From: Phenylobacterium sp.
GTDB lineage: Bacteria > Pseudomonadota > Alphaproteobacteria > Caulobacterales > Caulobacteraceae
DNA: 61,063 nt
Direction: 5' to 3'
Assembly (NCBI GenBank): GCA_017991675.1
Contig: JAGOQB010000015.1
Span: 1 to 61,063 of the forward strand
Both the position numbers and the translations under genes were made by a program. Below, in pieces: positions 13,030 through 56,582 of the stretch. The notes under the pieces were generated by a model, which did no database searches, was not told the DNA's origin, and saw only the letters and a program-made list of their open reading frames with translations. How positions within the stretch are numbered: the first letter of the stretch is position 1; each line of letters starts with the position of its first letter.

Positions 13030-13037
<8 letters not shown>

Positions 13038-14571
13038 GGGCGAGCCGGCCGCCGGAGACCGCCGAGGCCAGCGCTCGGGTCATGGTCCCGACCGGCCCGG
13101 GGTCGCCGTGCCGCGGCTGGCCCGACAGCCGGAAGCGGGCGACCAGGCCGGTCAACTCGGCGGCTTCGCCGCGCAGGGCGCGGGTGGCGGCGGCGGCCTG
13201 CTCGACCATGGCGGCGTTCTGCTGCAGTCCCTGGTCCATCTGGTTCACCGCCGAGTTGATCTGGGCCAGGCCCGAGGCCTGTTCCTGGGTGGAGGCGGCG
13301 ATGCCGGTGACCACCTCGTCGATCTCGCCGACCTTGGCGGCGATGGCCTGCAGGGCGGCGCCGGTTTCGCGAACCAGCCCGACGCCCTCGTCGACGTGAC
13401 CGGCCGAGGCGCCGATCAGATCCTTGATCTCGCGCGCGGCGTCGGCCGAGCGCTGGGCCAGGGCGCGGACCTCGGAGGCGACGACGGCGAAGCCGCGCCC
13501 GGCCTCGCCGGCGCGGGCGGCCTCGACCCCGGCGTTGAGCGCCAGCAGGTTGGTCTGGAAGGCGATTTCGTCGATCACCCCGATGATGCGGCCGATCTGG
13601 CCGGACGACTGCTCGATCTGGCCCATGGCGCCGACGGCGCGCTCGACCACGCTGGTGGAAAGCTCGGCCTGGGCCTTGGCGACGGCGACCACCTCGCCGG
13701 CCTGGCGCGCGCCGTCGGCGGTCGCCCTCACCGTGGCGGTGATCTGGTCGAGCGCCGCGGCGGTCTCTTCCAGGGCGGCGGCCTGGCGCTCGGTGCGCAG
13801 GGAAAGGTCGTCGGAGGCGCGGGCGAGCTCGACCGCGCCGGCCTCGACGCCGGCCGCGTTCCCGGCCACCGAGGCGATGGTCTCCTCCAGGCGGACCAGG
13901 GCGGCGTTGAAGTCCTCGCGGATCTGGGCGTATTCGGCCACCAGCCCGGCCTCGATCCGGTAGCCGAGATCGCCGCCGGCCAGGGCGCTCATCCCCGAGC
14001 CGATGGTCTGGACGATGGCGGCCCGCTCGGCCGCCAGGACCTCGGCCTCGGCCTTCTGGCGCGCGGCCTCGGCGGCGGCGAGATAGACCGAGATCGCATA
14101 GTCCATGTCGAGCAGAGTCGCCTTGGTGAGCGCGCCCAGCTCGGCGGCGAACTGGTCCGGCGTCGGGCCGCGGCGCATGAGGCCGCCGCGCGGCCAGCGG
14201 GCGGCGGTGACCGCGGCGATCAGCCCCTCCAGCACCAGGGCGTAACCGCCGATGTACCAGCGCGGCTCCAGGCCGATGCGGGCGTGGATTTCGCCGACGT
14301 TGGTGACGGCGGCGACGTAGTTCTCGTCGAACCGGCCGCTGGAGATCGTCTCCCAGTGATTGATCTGGCGGCTCTTGGCGCTGGCCACGTGGGTGGAGCT
14401 GGAGAAGAAGGCCCGGGTCTCCTCGCGTTGGGAGACCTGGCCGTAGAAGGCGTCGAGCGCGCCGGGGAGGGCGCTCATGACGATGGGTTTGATGTCCCGG
14501 AGACTCTCGCACGCGAGGTCGTCCATACGCATGAAGCTTAGTCGTTCACTGAGTTGCGCAGTAATAGACAT
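13030..14571 (-). CDS. Globin-coupled methyl-accepting chemotaxis protein (aerotaxis-type transducer)
   Basis: A 513-residue cytoplasmic chemoreceptor without membrane helices. Residues 1-150 match the protoglobin/HemAT sensor: [20 protein letters not shown] supplies the proximal haem ligand candidate His96, followed by [15 protein letters not shown]-like linker (about 190-235) leads to the MCP signalling hairpin with [20 protein letters not shown] and flanking adaptation regions. It should sense O2 or another haem ligand and control CheA. It is the first gene of a two-gene operon with the hybrid kinase. Upstream (14572-14716) is an AT-rich promoter region. Confidence 0.92.
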
Positions 14572-15513: not shown

Positions 15514-16236
15514 TCACATCCGATCGTCCGGGGACGGATCTTCGTCGGCGGGGCGCGCGCCGTCGTGCCGGCTGCGCCACTCGGCGAAGCCGCGGTCGAA
15601 GCGCTCCTGCCACTCGCCGCGGAAGGCCCGGTATTCGGCGTCGTACTTGCGCTGCTGTTCGGCGCGCCAGACGGCGTAATCGCGGTCGTGGGCGGAAAGC
15701 TTGGCTTCGCGCCAGTCGAGGTACTCCAGTTCGAACTCGGCCTGGGCGCCGGGGTGATAGGCGTAGTCGGCGGGCGGGCCGAACTCGCGCACCCCGAGGT
15801 CGCGGGGATCCAACGGCTGGTCGCCGTAGGGCGCGCGCTCGGCCTCGGTGGGGGCCGCGCCGGGCGGGCGGGCGCGGCGGCGGACGATGGACTGGCGATA
15901 GCCGTGCGGCTCGATGCCGTATTCCTGGCCGCCGTGCGGGGCGTCGAGGCTGTAGTAGCCGCGGGCCAGGGCGTCGGCCTCGTCGAAGGGCGCGTCGGGG
16001 GCGCTGTCGCGGCCCGACTCGTAGCGGCCGCGCCGCCAGTCGGGGCGGGCCTCGCTGGGCCGGTGGGCGCCGAAGGCGTCGAACGAGCGGGTGTCGGCGC
16101 CGTAGTAGCGGGCCTGGTCGGAGGAGTAGCGGCCCTCTTCGCCGAAGCTGTGAGGTTCCGCCGCGGGGCGTTTGGCCTCGTCACGGCGGCGGCTGCGCCG
16201 GCGCGGTTCGTCGGGCGGGGGCGGGCGATGGGGCAT
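15514..16236 (-). CDS. Charged stress-type protein of unknown function
   Basis: A 240-residue, very hydrophilic protein starting at ATG 16236 (MPHRPPPPDEPRRRSRRRDE...). The first 150 residues are low-complexity, rich in Arg, Asp, Tyr, Gly and Pro. The C-terminal 80 residues form an amphipathic repeat with regularly spaced Tyr/Phe-xx-Trp-Arg (EYLDWREAKLS, YAVWRAEQQRKYDAEY, AFRGEWQERF, FAEWRSRH). This tail recalls those of SWFGD-type stress proteins, by memory only. An exact EcfG-type promoter lies 33-57 bases upstream of the start, supporting general-stress induction. Confidence 0.7.
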   Translation of the reverse strand: MPHRPPPPDEPRRRSRRRDEAKRPAAEPHSFGEEGRYSSDQARYYGADTRSFDAFGAHRPSEARPDWRRGRYESGRDSAPDAPFDEADALARGYYSLDAPHGGQEYGIEPHGYRQSIVRRRARPPGAAPTEAERAPYGDQPLDPRDLGVREFGPPADYAYHPGAQAEFELEYLDWREAKLSAHDRDYAVWRAEQQRKYDAEYRAFRGEWQERFDRGFAEWRSRHDGARPADEDPSPDDRM

Positions 16237-16268
16237 GAACCTGATCCTCGGAAGCTCCTTCCTTCGGA

Positions 16269-16293
16269 AACGACGGGGCCGAGGGGGTGTTCC
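16269..16293 (-). promoter_or_regulatory. EcfG-type general stress promoter for the 15514-16236 gene
   Basis: Reading the minus strand, GGAAC (16293-16289) and CGTT (16272-16269) are separated by exactly 16 bases. This is the known alphaproteobacterial EcfG consensus GGAAC-N16/17-CGTT. The -10 element lies 33 bases from the start codon at 16236, a normal leader length. Confidence 0.75.
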
Positions 16294-16398
16294 GTCGCCG
16301 CGCGCGGCGACTCGGGCGATGGCTGGCGTCCCCTGCGCGAAGCGCCGGCGCGCGAAACGCCGCAGCGCCAACGCGCCGCCAAAGGCTAGGGTGAAGCG

Positions 16399-17022
16399 AT
16401 GGTGACGAGACAGATGTGGCTGGCGGCCGCGGCGTGGCTGGCGGCAGGTTCGGCGACCGCGGCCGACCGGGGGACGACCCAGGTCGACGAGGGTTTCCGC
16501 GGGGCCGTGACCGCGCCGCTGGAGGACCTGAACCTCAAGCAGGCGCAGATCCCGGACGTGCTGGTCCGAGCGGTCGCCGATCCGTACGAGGCCGGCGAAC
16601 TGACCCGTTGCGAGGCGATCGCCGCCGAGATCGGTCGGCTGGACGCGGTGCTGGGCCCCGACCTGGACGAGGCGCCGGCCCCCGACGAGCGCACGCGGAT
16701 GCAGAAGCTGGGGGCGCAGGCCAAGGCCGCGGCGGTGGCCGAGGTGCGCGGCGAAACCCAGGACCTGCTGCCGTTCCGCGGCTGGGTGCGCAAGCTGAGC
16801 GGCGCCGACCGCCACCGCAAGGCGGTGGAGGCGGCGATCAAGGCCGGCGGCGTGCGGCGCGGCTACCTGAAGGGCGTGGGCATGAACATGAACTGCGCCC
16901 CGCCGGCCGCGCCGAGCTGGTTCGTGCCGGAGAAGCCGGCCACGCCGACGTCGTGGCTGGCCGGCCTGTGGGAGGGCCTGGTGAACTGGCTGCGCGGGCT
17001 GTTCTTAGGCTTCAGCCGCTAG
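16399..17022 (+). CDS. Exported protein of unknown function
   Basis: A 207-residue protein with a signal peptide (MVTRQMWLAAAAWLAAGSATAA). The mature part is helical and charged, with Cys residues in LTRCEAIAAE and NMNCAPPAAP and a Trp-rich C-terminus (SWLAGLWEGLVNWLRGLFLGF) that could associate with membrane. The domain is unknown to me. Its stop codon overlaps that of the convergent peptidase gene (CTAG at 17019-17022). Confidence 0.75.
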   Translation: MVTRQMWLAAAAWLAAGSATAADRGTTQVDEGFRGAVTAPLEDLNLKQAQIPDVLVRAVADPYEAGELTRCEAIAAEIGRLDAVLGPDLDEAPAPDERTRMQKLGAQAKAAAVAEVRGETQDLLPFRGWVRKLSGADRHRKAVEAAIKAGGVRRGYLKGVGMNMNCAPPAAPSWFVPEKPATPTSWLAGLWEGLVNWLRGLFLGFSR

Positions 17023-18305
17023 TTCATGCCGGCCGCGACGAGGACGGCGGCGAGGCCGACGCTCATGCCGCGCACGCTGCTGGCCTTTTCGACGTCGATC
17101 CATTCGTCCAGCGAGTGGGCGCGGCCGCCGGAGCCGCCGCCGCCGATGGTGATGGCCGGAATGCCGAGCGCCATCGGCGCGTTGGCGTCGGTGGAGGAGG
17201 CGTCGTACTGCGGCGTGTAGCCGAGCGCTTCGATGGCGGCGGCGGTCCCAGCGACCAGGGCTGTGTCCTTGGCGGTCTGGCCGGCCGGGCGGTCGCCGAT
17301 CGGCTTGATCTCGACGCTGACCTGCCCGACGCGGGTGGAGCGGGCCTTGTTCTCGTGGTCGACGGCGGCCTGCATGATCTCCTTGAAGCGGCCATCGAGC
17401 TTGGCCAGTTCGCCGGCGTCGGCCGAGCGCATGTCGAACTCGGTGTAGACCTTGTTGGGGATGGCGTTGACCGAGGTGCCGCCGCCGGTGACCGAGGCCG
17501 AATAGGTGACCTTGGGGCTGGTCGGGACCTGGACCTCGTAGAAGTCGGCGATCGCCTTGCCCATGGCGGCCATCGGATTGACGATGCCGAACGAGCCATA
17601 GCTGTGGCCGCCCGGTCCGCTGAAGGTGGCGCGATAGCGCTTGGAGCCGACGCCGACGTGGGTGATGCCGCTGGGGTCGAGGCCGTCGACCGAGAAGAAC
17701 GCCTTGGTGCGGTCCTTGTACTTGCCCTGGTGGAAGAAGTAGCGGACGCCGCGCAGGTCGCCGGGGCCTTCTTCCCCGACCGTGCCGACGAACAGGATGT
17801 CGCTGGAGGTCTTGATCTTGGCCGTGTCGAGGGCGCGGATCCAGGCGAGCAGGACCGCGAGGTTGTGAGTGTCGTCGGCGACGCCCGGGGCGAACAGCTT
17901 GGTCCCCTCGCGGCGGACCCTCACGTCGGTGCCTTCCGGGAACACCGTGTCGAGGTGGGCGGAGACCACCACCAGCGGGCCGGGCCGGGTTCCCTTGCGC
18001 AGGCCCATGACGTTGCCCTCGGCGTCGATCTCGACGTCGGTCAGGCCGTGGGCCTCCAGCATCGCCTTGTAGGCCTTGCCGCGGGCCTCTTCCTTGAAGG
18101 GCGGGGCCGGGATTTCGGTCAGGGTGATGATGTCCTGCACGGTGCGCTCATGCTCGCGGTCGAGCACGGCGGTCGCCGCCTTGAAGGCCGGGCTGGCGAC
18201 GATCCTGGCCGCGTCGTTCTTTGGCGTGGCGCCCTGGGGCGCGGCCAAAGCCGGCGCGGCGATCAGGACGGACAGCGCGAACGCGGCGGGCAGGGAACGT
18301 GACAT
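17019..18305 (-). CDS. Exported M20-family metallopeptidase
   Basis: A 428-residue exported peptidase (signal peptide MSRSLPAAFALSVLIAAPALA). The M20 dizinc signature includes SAHLDTVF (His and Asp ligands) and GVADDTHNLAVLL (bridging Asp). VGTVGEEGPGDLRG supplies the general-base and zinc Glu, GPGGHSYGSFG lies in the lid domain, and AHSLDEWID holds the final His. It probably trims peptides or acyl-amino acids in the periplasm. ATG 18305 was chosen for the signal peptide. It is convergent with the exported protein gene and overlaps it by 4 bases. Confidence 0.9.
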   Translation of the reverse strand: MSRSLPAAFALSVLIAAPALAAPQGATPKNDAARIVASPAFKAATAVLDREHERTVQDIITLTEIPAPPFKEEARGKAYKAMLEAHGLTDVEIDAEGNVMGLRKGTRPGPLVVVSAHLDTVFPEGTDVRVRREGTKLFAPGVADDTHNLAVLLAWIRALDTAKIKTSSDILFVGTVGEEGPGDLRGVRYFFHQGKYKDRTKAFFSVDGLDPSGITHVGVGSKRYRATFSGPGGHSYGSFGIVNPMAAMGKAIADFYEVQVPTSPKVTYSASVTGGGTSVNAIPNKVYTEFDMRSADAGELAKLDGRFKEIMQAAVDHENKARSTRVGQVSVEIKPIGDRPAGQTAKDTALVAGTAAAIEALGYTPQYDASSTDANAPMALGIPAITIGGGGSGGRAHSLDEWIDVEKASSVRGMSVGLAAVLVAAGMN

Positions 18306-18401
18306 GGATACTCCAGGCGAAACGAGTCGGCGGCATAGTAGCGGTCGGGCTTGGCTCCGCCAGCCGCTGGGATTTTGAGCGCGACGAAACAAAACTCCGC
18401 T

Positions 18402-18535
18402 GTCATCCCGGTTTGCGAAGCAAGACCGGGACCCATTCGCAACCTCGTTGGCTGAATGGGGCGCCGCCCGGCCAAGACCTGCAAAATCTGGTGTTCATGG
18501 GTCCCGGTCTTCGGCTTCGCCGAAACCGGGATGAC
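18402..18535. repeat. Paired REP-like palindromic repeat
   Basis: The outer arms GTCATCCCGGTTT (18402-18414) and AAACCGGGATGAC (18523-18535) are perfect inverted copies. The inner arms GACCGGGACCCAT (18424-18436) and ATGGGTCCCGGTC (18497-18509) are too. Each half therefore folds into its own CCCGG...CCGGG hairpin, like a pair of REP units in opposite orientation. A related single unit is at 33894-33917. It lies between the start of the peptidase gene and the end of the sigma gene. Confidence 0.8.
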
Positions 18536-18548
18536 GCATTGAGTGGGG

Positions 18549-19085
18549 CTAGGCCCGGCTGGCCTCGGCGTAGTCGAGGACCATGACGTCGGCGGCCTCC
18601 TCGGCGTCCATGATCTTGAGCAGCCGGGCGCGGGCGCGGTTGACGCGGCTCTTGATGGTGCCGAGCGCGCAGCCGCAGATCTCGGCGGCCTCCTCGTAGG
18701 AGAGGCCGGCGGCGCCGACCAGGATCAGCGCCTCGCGGTGTTCGTCGGGCAGTTGGGCCAGGCCCGCCTGCAGCGCGCGCATGGCGATGCTCCAGTCCTG
18801 GGTCGGCGGGGTGCGCATGTTGTTGGCGTACTCGCCGGTCTCGTCGCGGACCTCGCGCCGGCGGCGGATCACCTGGGTGTAGTAGGTGTTGCGCAGGATG
18901 GTGAACAGCCAGGCGCGCAGGTTGGTGCCGGGCTCGAACTTGTCGCGGTTGGACCAGGCCTTGATCAGCGTGTCCTGCACCAGGTCGTCGGCGTCGGAGC
19001 CGTTATGGCTGAGGGACCAGGCGAAGGCGCGCAGAGCGGGGATCATCGCCACCACCTCGTTGCGCCACTCGGTGTCTCCGCCCAT
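18549..19085 (-). CDS. ECF sigma factor of the EcfG (general stress) type
   Basis: A 178-residue sigma factor. Region 2 contains DADDLVQDTLIKAWSNRDKF and the characteristic EPGTNLRAWLFTILRNTYYT plus RRREVRDETGEYA. Region 4 contains QLPDEHREALILVGAAGLSY and the recognition helix AEICGCALGTIKSRVNRARA. These features match ECF15/EcfG-like sigmas, which recognise GGAAC-N16/17-CGTT. No phyR or nepR gene is in the window, so this may be an EcfG paralogue rather than the main one. An exact EcfG-type promoter lies upstream, suggesting autoregulation, and another drives the divergent ergothioneine gene. Confidence 0.88.
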   Translation of the reverse strand: MGGDTEWRNEVVAMIPALRAFAWSLSHNGSDADDLVQDTLIKAWSNRDKFEPGTNLRAWLFTILRNTYYTQVIRRRREVRDETGEYANNMRTPPTQDWSIAMRALQAGLAQLPDEHREALILVGAAGLSYEEAAEICGCALGTIKSRVNRARARLLKIMDAEEAADVMVLDYAEASRA

Positions 19086-19141
19086 GCTGTCCTCGAAACG
19101 CCCGATCCCCTCGACGGGCCGTACGCTTTTCGTGGGACCTC

Positions 19142-19166
19142 AACGCGCCCTTGGGGCAACCGTTCC
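19142..19166 (-). promoter_or_regulatory. EcfG-type promoter of the sigma factor gene
   Basis: On the minus strand, GGAAC (19166-19162), a 16-base spacer and CGTT (19145-19142) match the EcfG consensus exactly. The -10 is 57 bases upstream of the sigma start at 19085. This implies positive autoregulation or control by another EcfG. Confidence 0.75.
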
Positions 19167-19200
19167 GGCTTGCGGGAGCGCCCCGAGCCCCCAAATGCAA

Positions 19201-19225
19201 GGAACTGCGTTCGCGTTACGACGTT
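19201..19225 (+). promoter_or_regulatory. EcfG-type promoter of the ergothioneine fusion gene
   Basis: GGAAC (19201-19205), 16 bases, then CGTT (19222-19225). It lies 72 bases upstream of ATG 19297 and back-to-back with the sigma gene promoter. An exact match to the known consensus. Confidence 0.75.
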
Positions 19226-19296
19226 TGGCGGGGCGAGCGCGGCTTCGCCGGGCATCGGCGAAATCCGGCACAATCGAAACAGAGTGGAGCGGGACG

Positions 19297-21522
19297 ATGG
19301 CGTCATTCGACAAGGCCAGGCTCGCGCCCGCGCCGGCCCGGGCCGCGCGGGCGCGCAGCGCCCCCGATCCCTACCGCAAGGTCCGTGACGCCAGCCTGGC
19401 GCTGACCGCGCACCTGTCGGCCGAGGACCAGGCCGCCCAGTCGATGCCGGACGCGAGCCCGGTGAAATGGCACCTGGCGCACACGACCTGGTTCTTCGAG
19501 ACCTTCCTGCTGGTCCCGCATCTGCCGGGCTACCGGGTGTTCGACCCGGCCTTCGGCTATCTGTTCAATTCGTACTACGAGGCGCTGGGGCCGCGGCAGC
19601 CGCGCCCGCAGCGCGGCCTGCTGACCCGGCCGTCGCTGGCCCAGGTGCTGGCCTATCGGGCCCATGTCGACGAGGCGATGGGGCGGCTGCTGGCCGCGCC
19701 GGTCGAGGGCGTGGCCGAGCTGGTCGAGCTGGGGCTGGCGCACGAGGAGCAGCACCAGGAGCTGATCCTGATGGACGTGCTGCACCTGTTCGCGCAGTCG
19801 CCGCTGAAGCCGGCCTATGTGCCGGCGCCGGCCCTGCCGGTCGGGCGCGATCCCGGCCTAGCGGGCGAGGTCGCCTTCGACGGCGGCTTGGTCGAGGTCG
19901 GCCATGACGGCGAGGGCTTCGCCTTCGACAACGAGGGGCCGCGGCACAGGGTCTATCTGGAGCCGTACCGGCTGGCCGACCGGCTGGTGACCAACGCCGA
20001 ATGGCTGGCCTTCATGGCCGACGGCGGCTATCGGCGGCCCGAGCTCTGGCTGTCGGAAGGCTGGGCGCGGGTCCAGGCCGAGGGCTGGGAGGCGCCGCTC
20101 TACTGGGAGCCGGGCGAGCGCGGCTGGCTGGCCATGACCCTGCAGGGCCGCCGGGCGATCGCGCCGCACGCGCCGGTGACCCATGTCAGCTTCTACGAGG
20201 CCGACGCCTACGCCACCTGGGCCGGGGCGCGGCTGCCGACCGAGGCCGAATGGGAGCACGCCGCGCAAGGGCTGGCGGCGGTCGGCAACATGCGCGAGCA
20301 GCTGCAGTTCGGACCGGCGGCGGCGAAGTCGGCGCCAGGCCTGCGCCAGATGTTCGGCGACGTGTGGGAATGGACCCGCAGCGCCTATGGCCCCTATCCG
20401 GGATTTCATCCGGCGGGCGGGGCGGTCGGCGAGTACAACGGCAAGTTCATGATCGGGCAGATGGTGCTGCGCGGCGGTTGCTGCGCGACGCCGGCCGGGC
20501 ATGTGCGCGCCAGCTACCGCAATTTCTTCTATCCGCAGCAGCGGTGGATGTTCTCGGGCGTGCGGCTGGCCTGGGACGGGCCCGCGCAGCCGGACGGCGC
20601 GGCGGCGGACAGCGAATTCGCGCGCGACGTGGTCGCCGGGCTGTCGCGGCCGCAGAAGGCGCTGGCGGCGAAGTACTTCTACGACGCGGCGGGCTCGGAG
20701 CTGTTCGAGGCGATCACCGAGTTGCCCGAGTACTATCCGACCCGCACCGAGCTGGCGCTGATGGCCCGGACGGCCGGCGAGATGGCCGCGGCGATCCCGG
20801 CCGGGGCCAGTCTGGTCGAGTTCGGCAGCGGGGCGAGCACCAAGACCCGGCTGCTGCTGGACGCCGCGCCGCAGCTGGCGGTCTATGCGCCGATCGACAT
20901 CAGCGCTTCGGCGCTGGATGCGGCGGCCGCGGCGATCGGGCGAGACTATCCGAGGCTGACGGTGGCGCCGCTGGTCGAGGACTTCACCAAGGCGCTGGCG
21001 TTGCCGCCGGCCGCTGGCCATCCGCGGGTCGGCTATTTCCCCGGCTCGACCATCGGCAATTTCACCCCTGAGGAGGTCGTCGACTTCCTGTCAGGGGCGC
21101 GGCGGCTGCTGGGCGAGGATGCGCGGTTCCTGGTCGGCATCGACCTGGCCAAGGACGAGGCGACGCTTACGGCGGCCTATGACGACGCCCAGGGCGTGAC
21201 GGCGGCCTTCAACCTGAACCTGCTGACGCGCATCAACCGCGAACTGGCAGGGGATTTCGACCCGGCTGCGTTCCGGCACCAGGCGGTTTTGAACGCCGAG
21301 CAGGGCCGGATCGAGATGCATCTGGTCAGCCTGCGCGATCAGTTCGTCAGCCTGGCCGGGCGCAGGTTCCGCTTCGCCGCGGGCGAGACCATCCACACGG
21401 AGAACTCCTACAAGTTCACGCTGGAGGGGTTTGCGGAGCTGGCCGCGGAGGCCGGCTGGAAGCTGGAGCGGAGCTGGGAAAGCCCCGCCCCGAGCTTCGC
21501 AGTGGTGCTGCTGAGGGCCTGA
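19297..21522 (+). CDS. Bifunctional EgtB-EgtD ergothioneine biosynthesis fusion
   Basis: A single 741-residue frame. Residues 1-428 are EgtB (iron-dependent sulfoxide synthase): a DinB-like N-terminus with HLAHTTWFF and the HX3HXE ligand motif HEEQHQE (His149, His153), then a formylglycine-generating-enzyme fold with TNAEWLAFMADGGY and RLPTEAEWEHAAQG. Residues from about 437 are EgtD (histidine N-alpha trimethyltransferase): AKYFYDAAGSELFEAIT, SAM motif EFGSGASTKT, GYFPGSTIGNFTPEE and HTENSYKF. The junction (about 20580) has no stop or frameshift. ATG 19297 is preceded by GGAGCGGG. Ergothioneine is a thiol antioxidant. The two enzymes are often separate neighbouring genes, and fungal Egt1 has the opposite domain order. 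No egtE-like gene is nearby. Confidence 0.93.
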   Translation: MASFDKARLAPAPARAARARSAPDPYRKVRDASLALTAHLSAEDQAAQSMPDASPVKWHLAHTTWFFETFLLVPHLPGYRVFDPAFGYLFNSYYEALGPRQPRPQRGLLTRPSLAQVLAYRAHVDEAMGRLLAAPVEGVAELVELGLAHEEQHQELILMDVLHLFAQSPLKPAYVPAPALPVGRDPGLAGEVAFDGGLVEVGHDGEGFAFDNEGPRHRVYLEPYRLADRLVTNAEWLAFMADGGYRRPELWLSEGWARVQAEGWEAPLYWEPGERGWLAMTLQGRRAIAPHAPVTHVSFYEADAYATWAGARLPTEAEWEHAAQGLAAVGNMREQLQFGPAAAKSAPGLRQMFGDVWEWTRSAYGPYPGFHPAGGAVGEYNGKFMIGQMVLRGGCCATPAGHVRASYRNFFYPQQRWMFSGVRLAWDGPAQPDGAAADSEFARDVVAGLSRPQKALAAKYFYDAAGSELFEAITELPEYYPTRTELALMARTAGEMAAAIPAGASLVEFGSGASTKTRLLLDAAPQLAVYAPIDISASALDAAAAAIGRDYPRLTVAPLVEDFTKALALPPAAGHPRVGYFPGSTIGNFTPEEVVDFLSGARRLLGEDARFLVGIDLAKDEATLTAAYDDAQGVTAAFNLNLLTRINRELAGDFDPAAFRHQAVLNAEQGRIEMHLVSLRDQFVSLAGRRFRFAAGETIHTENSYKFTLEGFAELAAEAGWKLERSWESPAPSFAVVLLRA

Positions 21523-21554: not shown

Positions 21555-21773
21555 TCAGCTTTCGAGACGATCGCCGCGGCTGCGGCCGCCGCCACGCGAG
21601 GACTCACCGCCCTTGCGTCCAGCGGAGGCGGCCAGATCGCGGTCCTTGGCGAAACTGCGTTTCTCGCCCGGCACGCTGGCGCCGCCCTTGCGCGCGATCT
21701 CGCGGCGGCGTTCCGGATTCATTGCTGCAAATCCGCGGCGGGATTTCGGTTTGGCGGTGGGTTCAAGATCCAT
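21555..21773 (-). CDS. KGG-repeat stress-induced protein
   Basis: A 72-residue, very basic, disordered protein. Two KGG repeats are visible (MNPERRREIARKGGASV and LAASAGRKGGESS), the signature of KGG/Con-10-like general stress proteins. AGAGGAG seven bases before ATG 21773 fixes the start. It is convergent with the ergothioneine gene. Homologues are typically induced by general stress sigma factors, but I could not find an exact EcfG promoter upstream here. Confidence 0.88.
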   Translation of the reverse strand: MDLEPTAKPKSRRGFAAMNPERRREIARKGGASVPGEKRSFAKDRDLAASAGRKGGESSRGGGRSRGDRLES

Positions 21774-54376: not shown

Positions 54377-54430
54377 GTCGGGACTCCGTACCTTTGGGGG
54401 AGCCGGCGACGCGGGCCGGCCTCTGCGGCA

Positions 54431-54455
54431 AACGGCCGGGGACGGCGGGCGTTCC
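54431..54455 (-). promoter_or_regulatory. EcfG-type promoter of the CBS protein gene
   Basis: On the minus strand GGAAC (54455-54451), a 16-base spacer and CGTT (54434-54431) match the EcfG consensus exactly. The -10 is 55 bases before ATG 54376. Confidence 0.75.
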
Positions 54456-54495
54456 GAGGGGGCGGCGGCGAGGCGGCCATGCGCCCAAAACAGCG

Positions 54496-54525
54496 AAGCC
54501 CGGGGGTCGAGGACCCACCGGGCTT
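54496..54525. repeat. Hairpin
   Basis: AAGCCCGG (54496-54503) pairs with CCGGGCTT (54518-54525), with GGGTC/GACCC extending the stem inside. A short AAAA tract precedes it on the plus strand (TTTT after it on the minus strand). Confidence 0.6.
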
Positions 54526-54637
54526 CAAGTCCGACTATCGTTTTCCATCGCTGGCTGATTTGTCGGGCTGGTTTTCGACTTTCATCTCCAACCGTCTGAT
54601 CAACGGGCGACCGGGACGATGGGTTCCGGCCGACCGC

Positions 54638-54656
54638 AAAAAATCCGAAGGCGGAT
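54638..54656 (-). terminator. Terminator-like hairpin, minus strand
   Basis: On the minus strand ATCCG-CCTT-CGGAT (54656-54643) is followed by a run of Ts (54643-54638). The stem is only 5 bp but the T-run is clear. No minus-strand gene lies just upstream. Confidence 0.55.
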
Positions 54657-54693
54657 GAAAAAGCCCAGAAGGCCGCCTGGGCGCTTCTGGGCT
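54656..54693 (-). terminator. Terminator-like hairpin, minus strand
   Basis: AGCCCAGAAG (54662-54671) and CTTCTGGGCT (54684-54693) are perfect 10-bp inverted arms. Read on the minus strand they are followed by TTTTTCAT. This is a good intrinsic terminator without an obvious upstream gene. Confidence 0.65.
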
Positions 54694-54845
54694 CCGAGCC
54701 GATCTCGAGTTTGCGTTTCGGGGATCGGTCATGTCCGTAGACATGAGCTTGAACCGCACGGACGCGCATCGGTTCCCGGCCTGGTGGAACAAACTTCGCG
54801 GCGCCCGTTCTGCGGGGCCTGACATGGCGGGGATTCTCCCGTCAC

Positions 54846-56582
54846 ATGGGCGCCATGCACAAGCCGCTCGCGCTCGCCGCCGTCCTGCTCGCCTCCACCG
54901 CCGCCCAGGCGAGGTCGCCCCAGGCCTATGACGTCCTGATCCGCAACGCCCAGATCTATGACGGTTCGGGCGCGGCGCCGTTCAAGGGCGAGGTGGCGAT
55001 CGCCGAGGACCGCATCGCCTATGTCGGGCCCAAGGCGCCCGAGGGTGCGCGCACGGTGATCGACGCCGGCGGCAAGGCGGTCTCGCCCGGCTTCATCAAC
55101 ATGCTGTCGTGGGCCACCGACAGCCTGATCGCCGATCCGCGCGGACTGTCGGACCTGAAGCAGGGCGTCACCTTGGAGGTGATGGGCGAGGGCAGCTCCA
55201 TGGGCCCGCTGAGCCCGCAGATGAAGCGGCTGGAAACCCAGCGCATGGGCGACATCATGTACGACATCGCCTGGACCAGCCTGGACGAATACCTGACCTG
55301 GCTGACCAGGCGCGGATCGGCGCTGAACGTCGCCTCGTTCGTCGGCGCGGCCACGGTGCGCGAGCACGTGCTGGGCGAGGGCGACGTCGACCCGACGCCC
55401 GAGCAACTGGCGGCGATGCGCAAGCTGGTCGTCGAGGCGATGCAGGACGGGGCGCTGGGCGTCGGCTCGTCGCTGATCTATGCGCCGGCCAGCTATGCCG
55501 AGACGCCCGAGTTGGTCGCGCTGGCGAGCGAAGCGGGACGCTGCGGCGGCATCTATATCAGCCACATGCGCTCGGAGGCTGACCGCCTGCTGGAGGCGAT
55601 CGACGAGCTGATCGAGATATCCAGGCAGTCGGGCGCGCCGGCCGAGATCTATCACCTCAAGCAGGCCGGCAAGGGCAACTGGGACAAGCTGGACCCGGCG
55701 ATCGCCCGCATCGAGGCGGCGCGGGCGGCGGGCCATCGGATTACGGCCGACATGTACACCTATACCGCCGGTTCGACGGGCCTGGACGCAGCCATGCCGC
55801 CCTGGGTGCAGGCTGGCGGGGTGGAGAGCTGGACCCAGCGCCTGAAGGACCCGGCGACCCGCGCCAAGGTCATCGCCGAAATGCGGCAGGAGAAGCCGGC
55901 CTTCGAGAACCTCTATCGTCACGCCGGGGCCGAGGGCACGCTGCTGGTGGGGTTCAAGAACCCGGCCCTGAAGGGACTGACCGGCAAGACCCTAGCCCAG
56001 GTGGCCAAGGACCGCGGCGTCTCGCCCGAGGACGCGGCCATCGACCTGGTGATCGAGGACGGCAGCCGGGTGCAGGTGGTCTATTTCCTGATGTCCGAAC
56101 AGAACGTGGCGCGGCAGACGGCGCTGCCCTGGATGAGCTTCGGCTCGGACGCCTCGGCTCAAGCGCCGGAGGGCGTGTTCCTGAAGTCGAGCACCCATCC
56201 GCGGGCCTACGGCAATTTCGCGCGGCTGCTCGGCAAGTACGTGCGCGAGGAGAAGACGACGAGCCTGGCCGACGCCGTGCGCCGGTTGTCGGCGTTCCCC
56301 GCCCAGAACCTGGGGCTGAAGGACCGCGGGATGCTGAAGGCCGGCTACTATGCCGACGTGGTGGTGTTCGATCCGGCGACCATCGGCGACGTCGGCACCT
56401 ATGAGCAGCCCAAGCAGTTCGCGGTCGGGGTCAGCGACGTGTTCGTCAACGGCAAGCAGGCGCTGAAGGACGGCGAGCCGACCGGTCAGCTGGCCGGCCA
56501 GGTGGTGCGCGGGCGCGGCTGGAGCGGCTGGAGCGACGGCGGTTGCCGGGCGAGCGCCAAGGATTGGAGTTGGACATGGTGA
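54846..56582 (+). CDS. Exported D-aminoacylase-like amidohydrolase with atypical metal site
   Basis: A 578-residue exported protein (signal peptide ends near AAQARS). It has the amidohydrolase-superfamily layout of N-acyl-D-amino-acid deacylases: beta-sandwich YDVLIRNAQIYDGSGA, TIM barrel with LEVMGEGSS, ISHMRSEAD and EIYHLKQAGKG, late Asp in FGSDASAQAP, and the closing RGMLKAGYYADVVVFDP. The usual first-strand HxH (PGFIDxHTH) is replaced by PGFINMLSWATD, so two metal ligands are missing. It may use one metal or have altered activity. It overlaps the downstream amidase gene by 7 bases. Confidence 0.88.
   Translation: MGAMHKPLALAAVLLASTAAQARSPQAYDVLIRNAQIYDGSGAAPFKGEVAIAEDRIAYVGPKAPEGARTVIDAGGKAVSPGFINMLSWATDSLIADPRGLSDLKQGVTLEVMGEGSSMGPLSPQMKRLETQRMGDIMYDIAWTSLDEYLTWLTRRGSALNVASFVGAATVREHVLGEGDVDPTPEQLAAMRKLVVEAMQDGALGVGSSLIYAPASYAETPELVALASEAGRCGGIYISHMRSEADRLLEAIDELIEISRQSGAPAEIYHLKQAGKGNWDKLDPAIARIEAARAAGHRITADMYTYTAGSTGLDAAMPPWVQAGGVESWTQRLKDPATRAKVIAEMRQEKPAFENLYRHAGAEGTLLVGFKNPALKGLTGKTLAQVAKDRGVSPEDAAIDLVIEDGSRVQVVYFLMSEQNVARQTALPWMSFGSDASAQAPEGVFLKSSTHPRAYGNFARLLGKYVREEKTTSLADAVRRLSAFPAQNLGLKDRGMLKAGYYADVVVFDPATIGDVGTYEQPKQFAVGVSDVFVNGKQALKDGEPTGQLAGQVVRGRGWSGWSDGGCRASAKDWSWTW

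Follow-up and report, generated by a model that had tools for sequence, protein, structure and literature searches.

The stretch of DNA analysed here (61,063 nucleotides, positions 1 to 61,063 of contig JAGOQB010000015.1 in the Phenylobacterium sp. assembly GCA_017991675.1; hereafter the window) carries a gene for an extracytoplasmic function (ECF) sigma factor and, transcribed away from it, egtBD, in which EgtB and EgtD are joined in a single fused protein with a predicted function in ergothioneine synthesis. Between the two genes lie back-to-back matches to GGAAC-N16-CGTT, the promoter consensus of the EcfG-type sigma factors of the alphaproteobacterial general stress response (GSR), and three further matches to the N16 or N17 form precede genes for a highly charged protein and a CBS-domain protein and a predicted small RNA (Table 1). 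We established from sequence the sites and how far they are conserved, the family to which the sigma factor belongs, the fusion of the two enzymes and the predicted fold of the RNA.

The sigma factor has the ECF architecture with regions 2 and 4 only and is akin to the sigma-like domain of PhyR: its PhyR_sigma2 match scores 49.8 bits (cut-off 27), and those to Sigma70_r2 and Sigma70_r4_2 likewise exceed their cut-offs. Its best solved relative is 5uxx_A (E = 4.7e-59), the partner chain of which, 5uxx_B, is NepR. It has 17 orthologues at 77–99% identity (set A2), is 99% identical to the sigma factor of Phenylobacterium sp. PB1.003, and shares about 45–46% identity with the NepR-linked EcfG of its genus. 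In a tree, this sigma type forms its own branch near NepR-linked groups, with many weak forks, no experimentally proven EcfG among the rows, and the Caulobacteraceae group as one side of a branch with support of only 70/55. Domains, solved relative, tree and genus comparison all agree with the EcfG-like character that a preliminary description of this DNA had given the gene, and by sequence it is an EcfG-family paralogue distinct from the NepR-linked EcfG; with no nepR or phyR at its locus, it is at most a non-canonical copy. The egtBD product scores above both family cut-offs (TIGR03440, 586.8 bits against 360; TIGR03438, 398.5 bits against 290.9), and some match to it occurs in 184 of 199 genomes of the family, near-full-length ones being frequent among the matches listed. 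A second EcfG-like sigma (G000, C3:403421-403882; L010, L107), about 50% identical to that of the window, has neither a NepR-like open reading frame (ORF) nor an exact motif upstream.

Table 1. Coordinates and properties of the features in the window
Feature	Position	Strand	Remarks
ECF sigma factor, 178 aa, EcfG-family paralogue	18549..19085	-	Sigma70_r2, Sigma70_r4_2, PhyR_sigma2
egtBD, 741-aa EgtB-EgtD fusion	19297..21522	+	TIGR03440 + TIGR03438
EcfG-type promoter, sigma gene	19142-19166	-	GGAAC-N16-CGTT; exact motif match
EcfG-type promoter, egtBD	19201-19225	+	GGAAC-N16-CGTT; exact motif match; back to back with sigma promoter
EcfG-type promoter, charged protein	16269-16293	-	N16; exact motif match
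EcfG-type promoter, CBS-domain protein	54431-54455	-	N16; exact motif match
EcfG-type promoter, before predicted small RNA	54602-54627	-	GGAAC-N17-CGTT; exact motif match
Highly charged protein, 240 aa	15514..16236	-	7.9% Gly, mean hydrophilicity 1.48
Protein with two CBS domains, 145 aa	53939..54376	-	PF00571, two stretches
Predicted structured small RNA	54479..54603	-	ends in intrinsic-terminator-like hairpin ~54495-54527
KGG-motif stress protein	21555..21773	-	PF10685, 42.9 bits

Placement and conservation of the EcfG-type sites

The four N16 sites listed in the preliminary description are all present with the positions, strands and spacing it gave, and its distance of 33–72 bases to the start codon differs only by way of counting from the 32–71 that we measure from CGTT (charged protein 32, CBS protein 54, sigma 56 and egtBD 71 bases); it overlooked the fifth site, that with N17. 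Counting both strands and both spacings, the window holds 5 matches against a mean of 0.59 in shuffled sequence, and none of 100 shuffles reaches 5. The figure of one chance match in 262,000 positions in the preliminary description neglected two strands and two spacings. A variant with N15 lies at 54786-54809 on the plus strand, upstream of an amidohydrolase gene (54846-56582).

Across the 3.03-Mb assembly we find 25 sites, 5 of which fall in the window (binomial p = 1.3e-4 by length). As a control we used the reversed pattern, whose 31 places yield 30 distinct hits, one place being without a locus. The sites are intergenic in 16 of 25 cases, as against 5 of the 30 controls (Fisher p = 6e-4), and a called start lies at most 250 bp downstream of 15/25 sites and 4/30 controls (p = 5e-4); with the window excluded, 11 of 20 sites are intergenic (p = 0.006) and 11 of 20 have a start downstream (p = 0.004). 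The gene caller behind these figures is of a simple codon-position type with start choice, so that single assignments may be wrong, and it missed the charged protein. Equal abundance of the motif within and between genes, which the preliminary description had named as speaking against its reading, is not what we observe genome-wide (9 sites within genes, 16 between). The genes behind other assembly sites include those of a mechanosensitive channel, a short-chain dehydrogenase/reductase, a DUF883 protein and a glycine-zipper-like protein (the last just below the Pfam cut-off), and some of the 20 sites outside the window precede gene kinds known from stress regulons.

We further compared 41 distinct sigma/egtBD intergenic regions, of which 29 come from named loci, one from the window and 11 from other loci; 8 of 19 loci (L080, L083-L085, L089, L091, L092 and L094) were excluded as duplicates because their contigs have the same lengths as those of named loci in the set. 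An exact N16/17 site precedes the sigma gene in 40 of the 41 regions and egtBD in 30, where shuffling of the regions gives a mean of 0.16 on one strand and a maximum of 2. Within the clade of the window (8 loci), the promoter boxes are among the best conserved blocks and the spacers vary. In other genera of the family, 11 of 40 egtBD loci have an adjacent sigma gene (egtBD site in 5, sigma site in 9); at least 4 of these 11 repeat loci of the 41-region set, and the 29 sigma-less loci do not. Among the latter, all in Caulobacteraceae, 13 have the egtBD site, against 0.12 in shuffles over all 40 regions. The divergent pairing itself occurs in 29 of the 33 Caulobacteraceae-group loci (L108-L138, L145 and L151, five of them titled only to order or above) among 80 named sigma loci, one of the 29 matching EgtB alone. 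The culturable Phenylobacterium sp. Root1290 (L109) is a relative with this gene order.

The site of the charged protein is present in all 8 distinct loci with a close homologue, namely the window and 7/7 others of 58–96% identity, and that of the CBS gene in 5 of 6 orthologues sharing 79% identity or more (the window, L262, L263, L264 and L237), at position -76 to -79; three more distant CBS relatives (L245, L265 and L269) have no exact site. The putative EcfG-type promoters of sigma, egtBD, charged-protein and CBS genes are thus kept in relatives while the spacer DNA changes, and they combine the sequence features of an EcfG-dependent promoter: GGAAC-N16/17-CGTT, an intergenic position and retention before orthologous genes.

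A predicted small RNA and neighbouring genes

The N17 site, exact in 6/6 CBS-linked loci, precedes a conserved stretch whose predicted fold beats shuffles (z = -3.3). An RNA model (R1) built from five sequences matches 11 places in 8 of the 60 genomes of our genus set, five of these places being the model's own sequences. GGAAC occurs within two bases of the same position upstream of all 11 matches, and CGTT is exact before 7, the rest, judged by eye, having TGTT (3) or GGTT (1); the CBS gene is next to the RNA in 6 of the 10 distinct loci searched. Of 32 pairs, 15 changed on both sides (13 distinct rows, two of them weak extra matches in L349), compared with a shuffled mean of 5.8 and with none of 500 shuffles as high, and slid versions of the pairing give at most 3 such pairs; the number of further pair types, 26 against 23.7 in shuffles (52/500), is no better than shuffles. 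Because the alignment was fitted to the model, these pair counts lean towards it.

The RNA is absent from Rfam, which at its thresholds matches only a tRNA in the window and gives three far-below-threshold matches at 54380-54840. At five canonical GSR loci the best match of the model reaches just 12.6 bits (E = 0.26). A 16-codon ORF within the RNA was rejected, since one-base insertions and deletions among relatives, seen by eye, break its frame. One genome (G021) has two tandem copies of the RNA, the second weak.

Among the neighbouring genes, that of the KGG-motif stress protein is a conserved neighbour of egtBD and adjoins the sigma homologue in Xanthobacteraceae loci; an EcfG promoter for it was considered and set aside, the Phenylobacterium loci inspected giving imperfect matches only (GCAAC...). 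Neither Pfam nor NCBIfam gives a match for the charged protein at E 0.001. At 13030-14571 on the minus strand lies the gene of a chemoreceptor that has a protoglobin domain at its N terminus and is likely to sense oxygen.

Proposed mechanism and its alternatives

We propose, with a probability of roughly 0.78, that the locus is a satellite unit of the GSR in which EcfG-type sigmas would drive ergothioneine synthesis along with a paralogue sigma. Since both genes have a stress-type promoter, ergothioneine looks like a GSR output. We infer the reading of the promoters by either sigma, the order of the two sigmas, autoregulation, the direction of control and the physiology, as follows. The sigma would be a second, EcfG2-like member of the EcfG family, and it and egtBD would be transcribed in opposite directions off the two back-to-back promoters. 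Under stress, an EcfG-type sigma would read both promoters, the first to do so probably being the canonical EcfG released from NepR by PhyR; the new sigma would then read the same promoters itself, so that the paralogue may prolong or amplify the response. Ergothioneine, a thiol antioxidant, would accumulate as a result, and promoters of the same kind would induce the small RNA, the CBS protein and the charged protein, which is hydrophilic. A NepR-like gene convergent with the sigma gene in 19 of the 33 Caulobacteraceae-group loci, and undetected in the window clade, may restrain the sigma.

Placement and conservation thus support the regulon that the preliminary description had proposed. Its term "local" is wrong, since 20 of the 25 assembly sites fall outside the window, and "autoregulated" is not borne out, because these promoters could equally be read by the usual EcfG: the NepR-linked EcfG of the genus, whose canonical locus lies elsewhere with nepR immediately upstream of ecfG and the motif upstream in 5/5 loci read, could itself drive the sigma gene. 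At these canonical loci (L190, L193, L195, L197 and L200), more exact sites occur before a putative phyR, a small lipoprotein gene and a small membrane protein gene (names assigned by eye).

The motif at the canonical locus also fits an account in which the NepR-controlled EcfG alone reads the promoters and the paralogue governs few genes by itself, like SigU of Caulobacter crescentus; we consider this possible, if on the unlikely side. In that species sigU expression is SigT-dependent and one gene alone is SigU-dependent in starvation microarrays, and the 13 egtBD genes that have a site and no adjacent paralogue point the same way. Against such a passive role stand the strong conservation of the sigma and its divergent pairing with egtBD, the effect of a sigU deletion on CtrA stability, and the gene list of a Rhizobium etli EcfG1/EcfG2 double mutant, which yielded the same motif.

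An autonomous second partner switch is also conceivable, and we regard it as improbable: the sigma and its convergent NepR-like anti-sigma would form a branch apart from PhyR/NepR/EcfG, dedicated to ergothioneine, and the anti-sigma would have been lost in the window clade. The NepR-like ORF of the 19 loci has NepR chains as its three best solved matches (E 0.003–0.011), and such an ORF lies directly upstream of the sigma in 33/33 homologues outside Caulobacteraceae, Xanthobacteraceae and Azospirillaceae (E up to 0.05; largely Rhodobacterales, the remainder after leaving out 9 Xanthobacteraceae and 5 Azospirillaceae loci). It was not found in the window or in 7 distinct loci of its clade (counting L080 and L110, which are the same contig, once); in all of these the genes of an M20 peptidase and of the charged protein lie downstream of the sigma. 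However, 14 of the 33 loci have no NepR-like ORF beside the sigma, ten of them beyond the window clade; the scores against Pfam PF18557 straddle the cut-off of 25.7 (29.9, 25.5 and 22.4 bits, one of four being unmatched); and NepR2 of Sphingomonas melonis, whose locus number adjoins that of ecfG, acts on PhyR and possibly does not bind EcfG. An inverted-repeat-like stretch was seen by eye at 18390-18540, in the intergenic DNA that separates the M20 peptidase gene from the sigma gene, roughly where relatives carry the NepR-like gene.

A bolder combination of these elements strikes us as doubtful. Caulobacteraceae would then have a second dedicated stress module, in which an EcfG paralogue has a convergent NepR-like anti-sigma to itself and is linked to a fused ergothioneine enzyme through promoters placed back to back. 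In the window clade, with the anti-sigma gone, a positive-feedback sigma would be restrained by transcription alone, and structured small RNAs of a new, EcfG-driven family would act in the same response.

Several observations weigh against the satellite unit that we favour. The 25 sites of the assembly are no excess over the 31 of the reversed pattern; we take this raw count to be uninformative, because the reversed word is probably codon-friendly, and used placement in its stead, and chance matches in GC-rich DNA, which the raw count would suit, are very improbable in view of intergenic placement and of the conservation of the sigma, egtBD, charged-protein and CBS sites in diverged relatives. 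The egtBD site is missing from 11 of the 41 regions and from 16 of the 29 sigma-less loci, and it is uneven by genus, being present in 9/11 loci of genus g31, where four of the sites are near-identical and so not independent, and in 0/6 of genus g23. More generally, the compared genomes are related, so that the conservation counts are not independent. The charged-protein site is present in 0/5 loci with distant partial matches (41–47% identity), the sixth CBS orthologue (L349) has no exact site at the corresponding place, and no exact motif lies within 450 bp of L202 or L203, two NepR-linked sigmas that belong to a different family of the order. In this assembly, which is 70.7% complete, NepR was not found, and a search for PhyR by its sigma2 domain matched two sigma factors only; NepR is present in 46 of the 60 genus genomes, G022 and G023, both closely related, among them. 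Finally, whereas the heat and UV sensitivity of a Methylobacterium egtBD mutant speaks for the satellite unit, the same mutant is more, not less, resistant to H2O2 (PMC4621440).

Comparison with known systems

A 2020 study of Sphingopyxis granuli presented its EcfG-dependent egtB/egtD as a first (PMC7083833), and the EcfG-binding motif table of S. melonis contains a TIGR03440 protein, of the EgtB family, with a log2 ratio of -4.0 and a motif that is a poor match (PMC6599016). A coherent feed-forward loop, with paralogue sigmas driven by the main EcfG, is described for C. crescentus, where SigT drives sigU, and for S. melonis (PMC4814048). The principle is therefore already known, and what is new is how the genes are arranged and how widely this occurs, together with the neighbouring NepR-like gene and the RNA; our searches of the open-access literature listed no account of the sigma-egtBD arrangement in Caulobacteraceae. 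Our findings would extend EcfG control of ergothioneine from the sphingomonads to the family of the main GSR model, Caulobacter vibrioides, in which no EgtB scores above the cut-off, and this may explain why the link escaped notice there. They also offer a natural test of the division of labour among extra EcfG copies, some of which have a NepR-like gene beside them and others none, and add a candidate family of stress small RNAs.

The candidate RNA resembles GsrN, a SigT-dependent small RNA of Caulobacter (PMC5869019), in its length of about 100 nt, its EcfG promoter and its intrinsic terminator. It differs in showing no C-rich 5' loop in its predicted folds (judged by eye, GsrN being compared by description only) and in adjoining the CBS gene at six of the ten loci noted above. 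The sigma shares with EcfG (ECF15) and its EcfG2 paralogues (SigT/SigU of Caulobacter, EcfG1/EcfG2 of R. etli and Sphingopyxis) the sigma domains, a PhyR-like region 2, the promoter consensus and a site before its own gene; the likeness to SigU of C. crescentus is drawn by description, not by sequence. Unlike these, it is paired with egtBD, and its NepR-like gene is convergent or absent. NepR2 of S. melonis is similar as a NepR-like gene numbered next to an ecfG, whereas that of Caulobacteraceae is convergent with a paralogue sigma and missing in the window clade. Lastly, the S. granuli egtB/egtD and the S. melonis TIGR03440 gene are likewise ergothioneine genes linked to EcfG, but there they are separate genes with locus numbers distant from ecfG, whereas in the window one fused gene stands back to back with an EcfG-type sigma.

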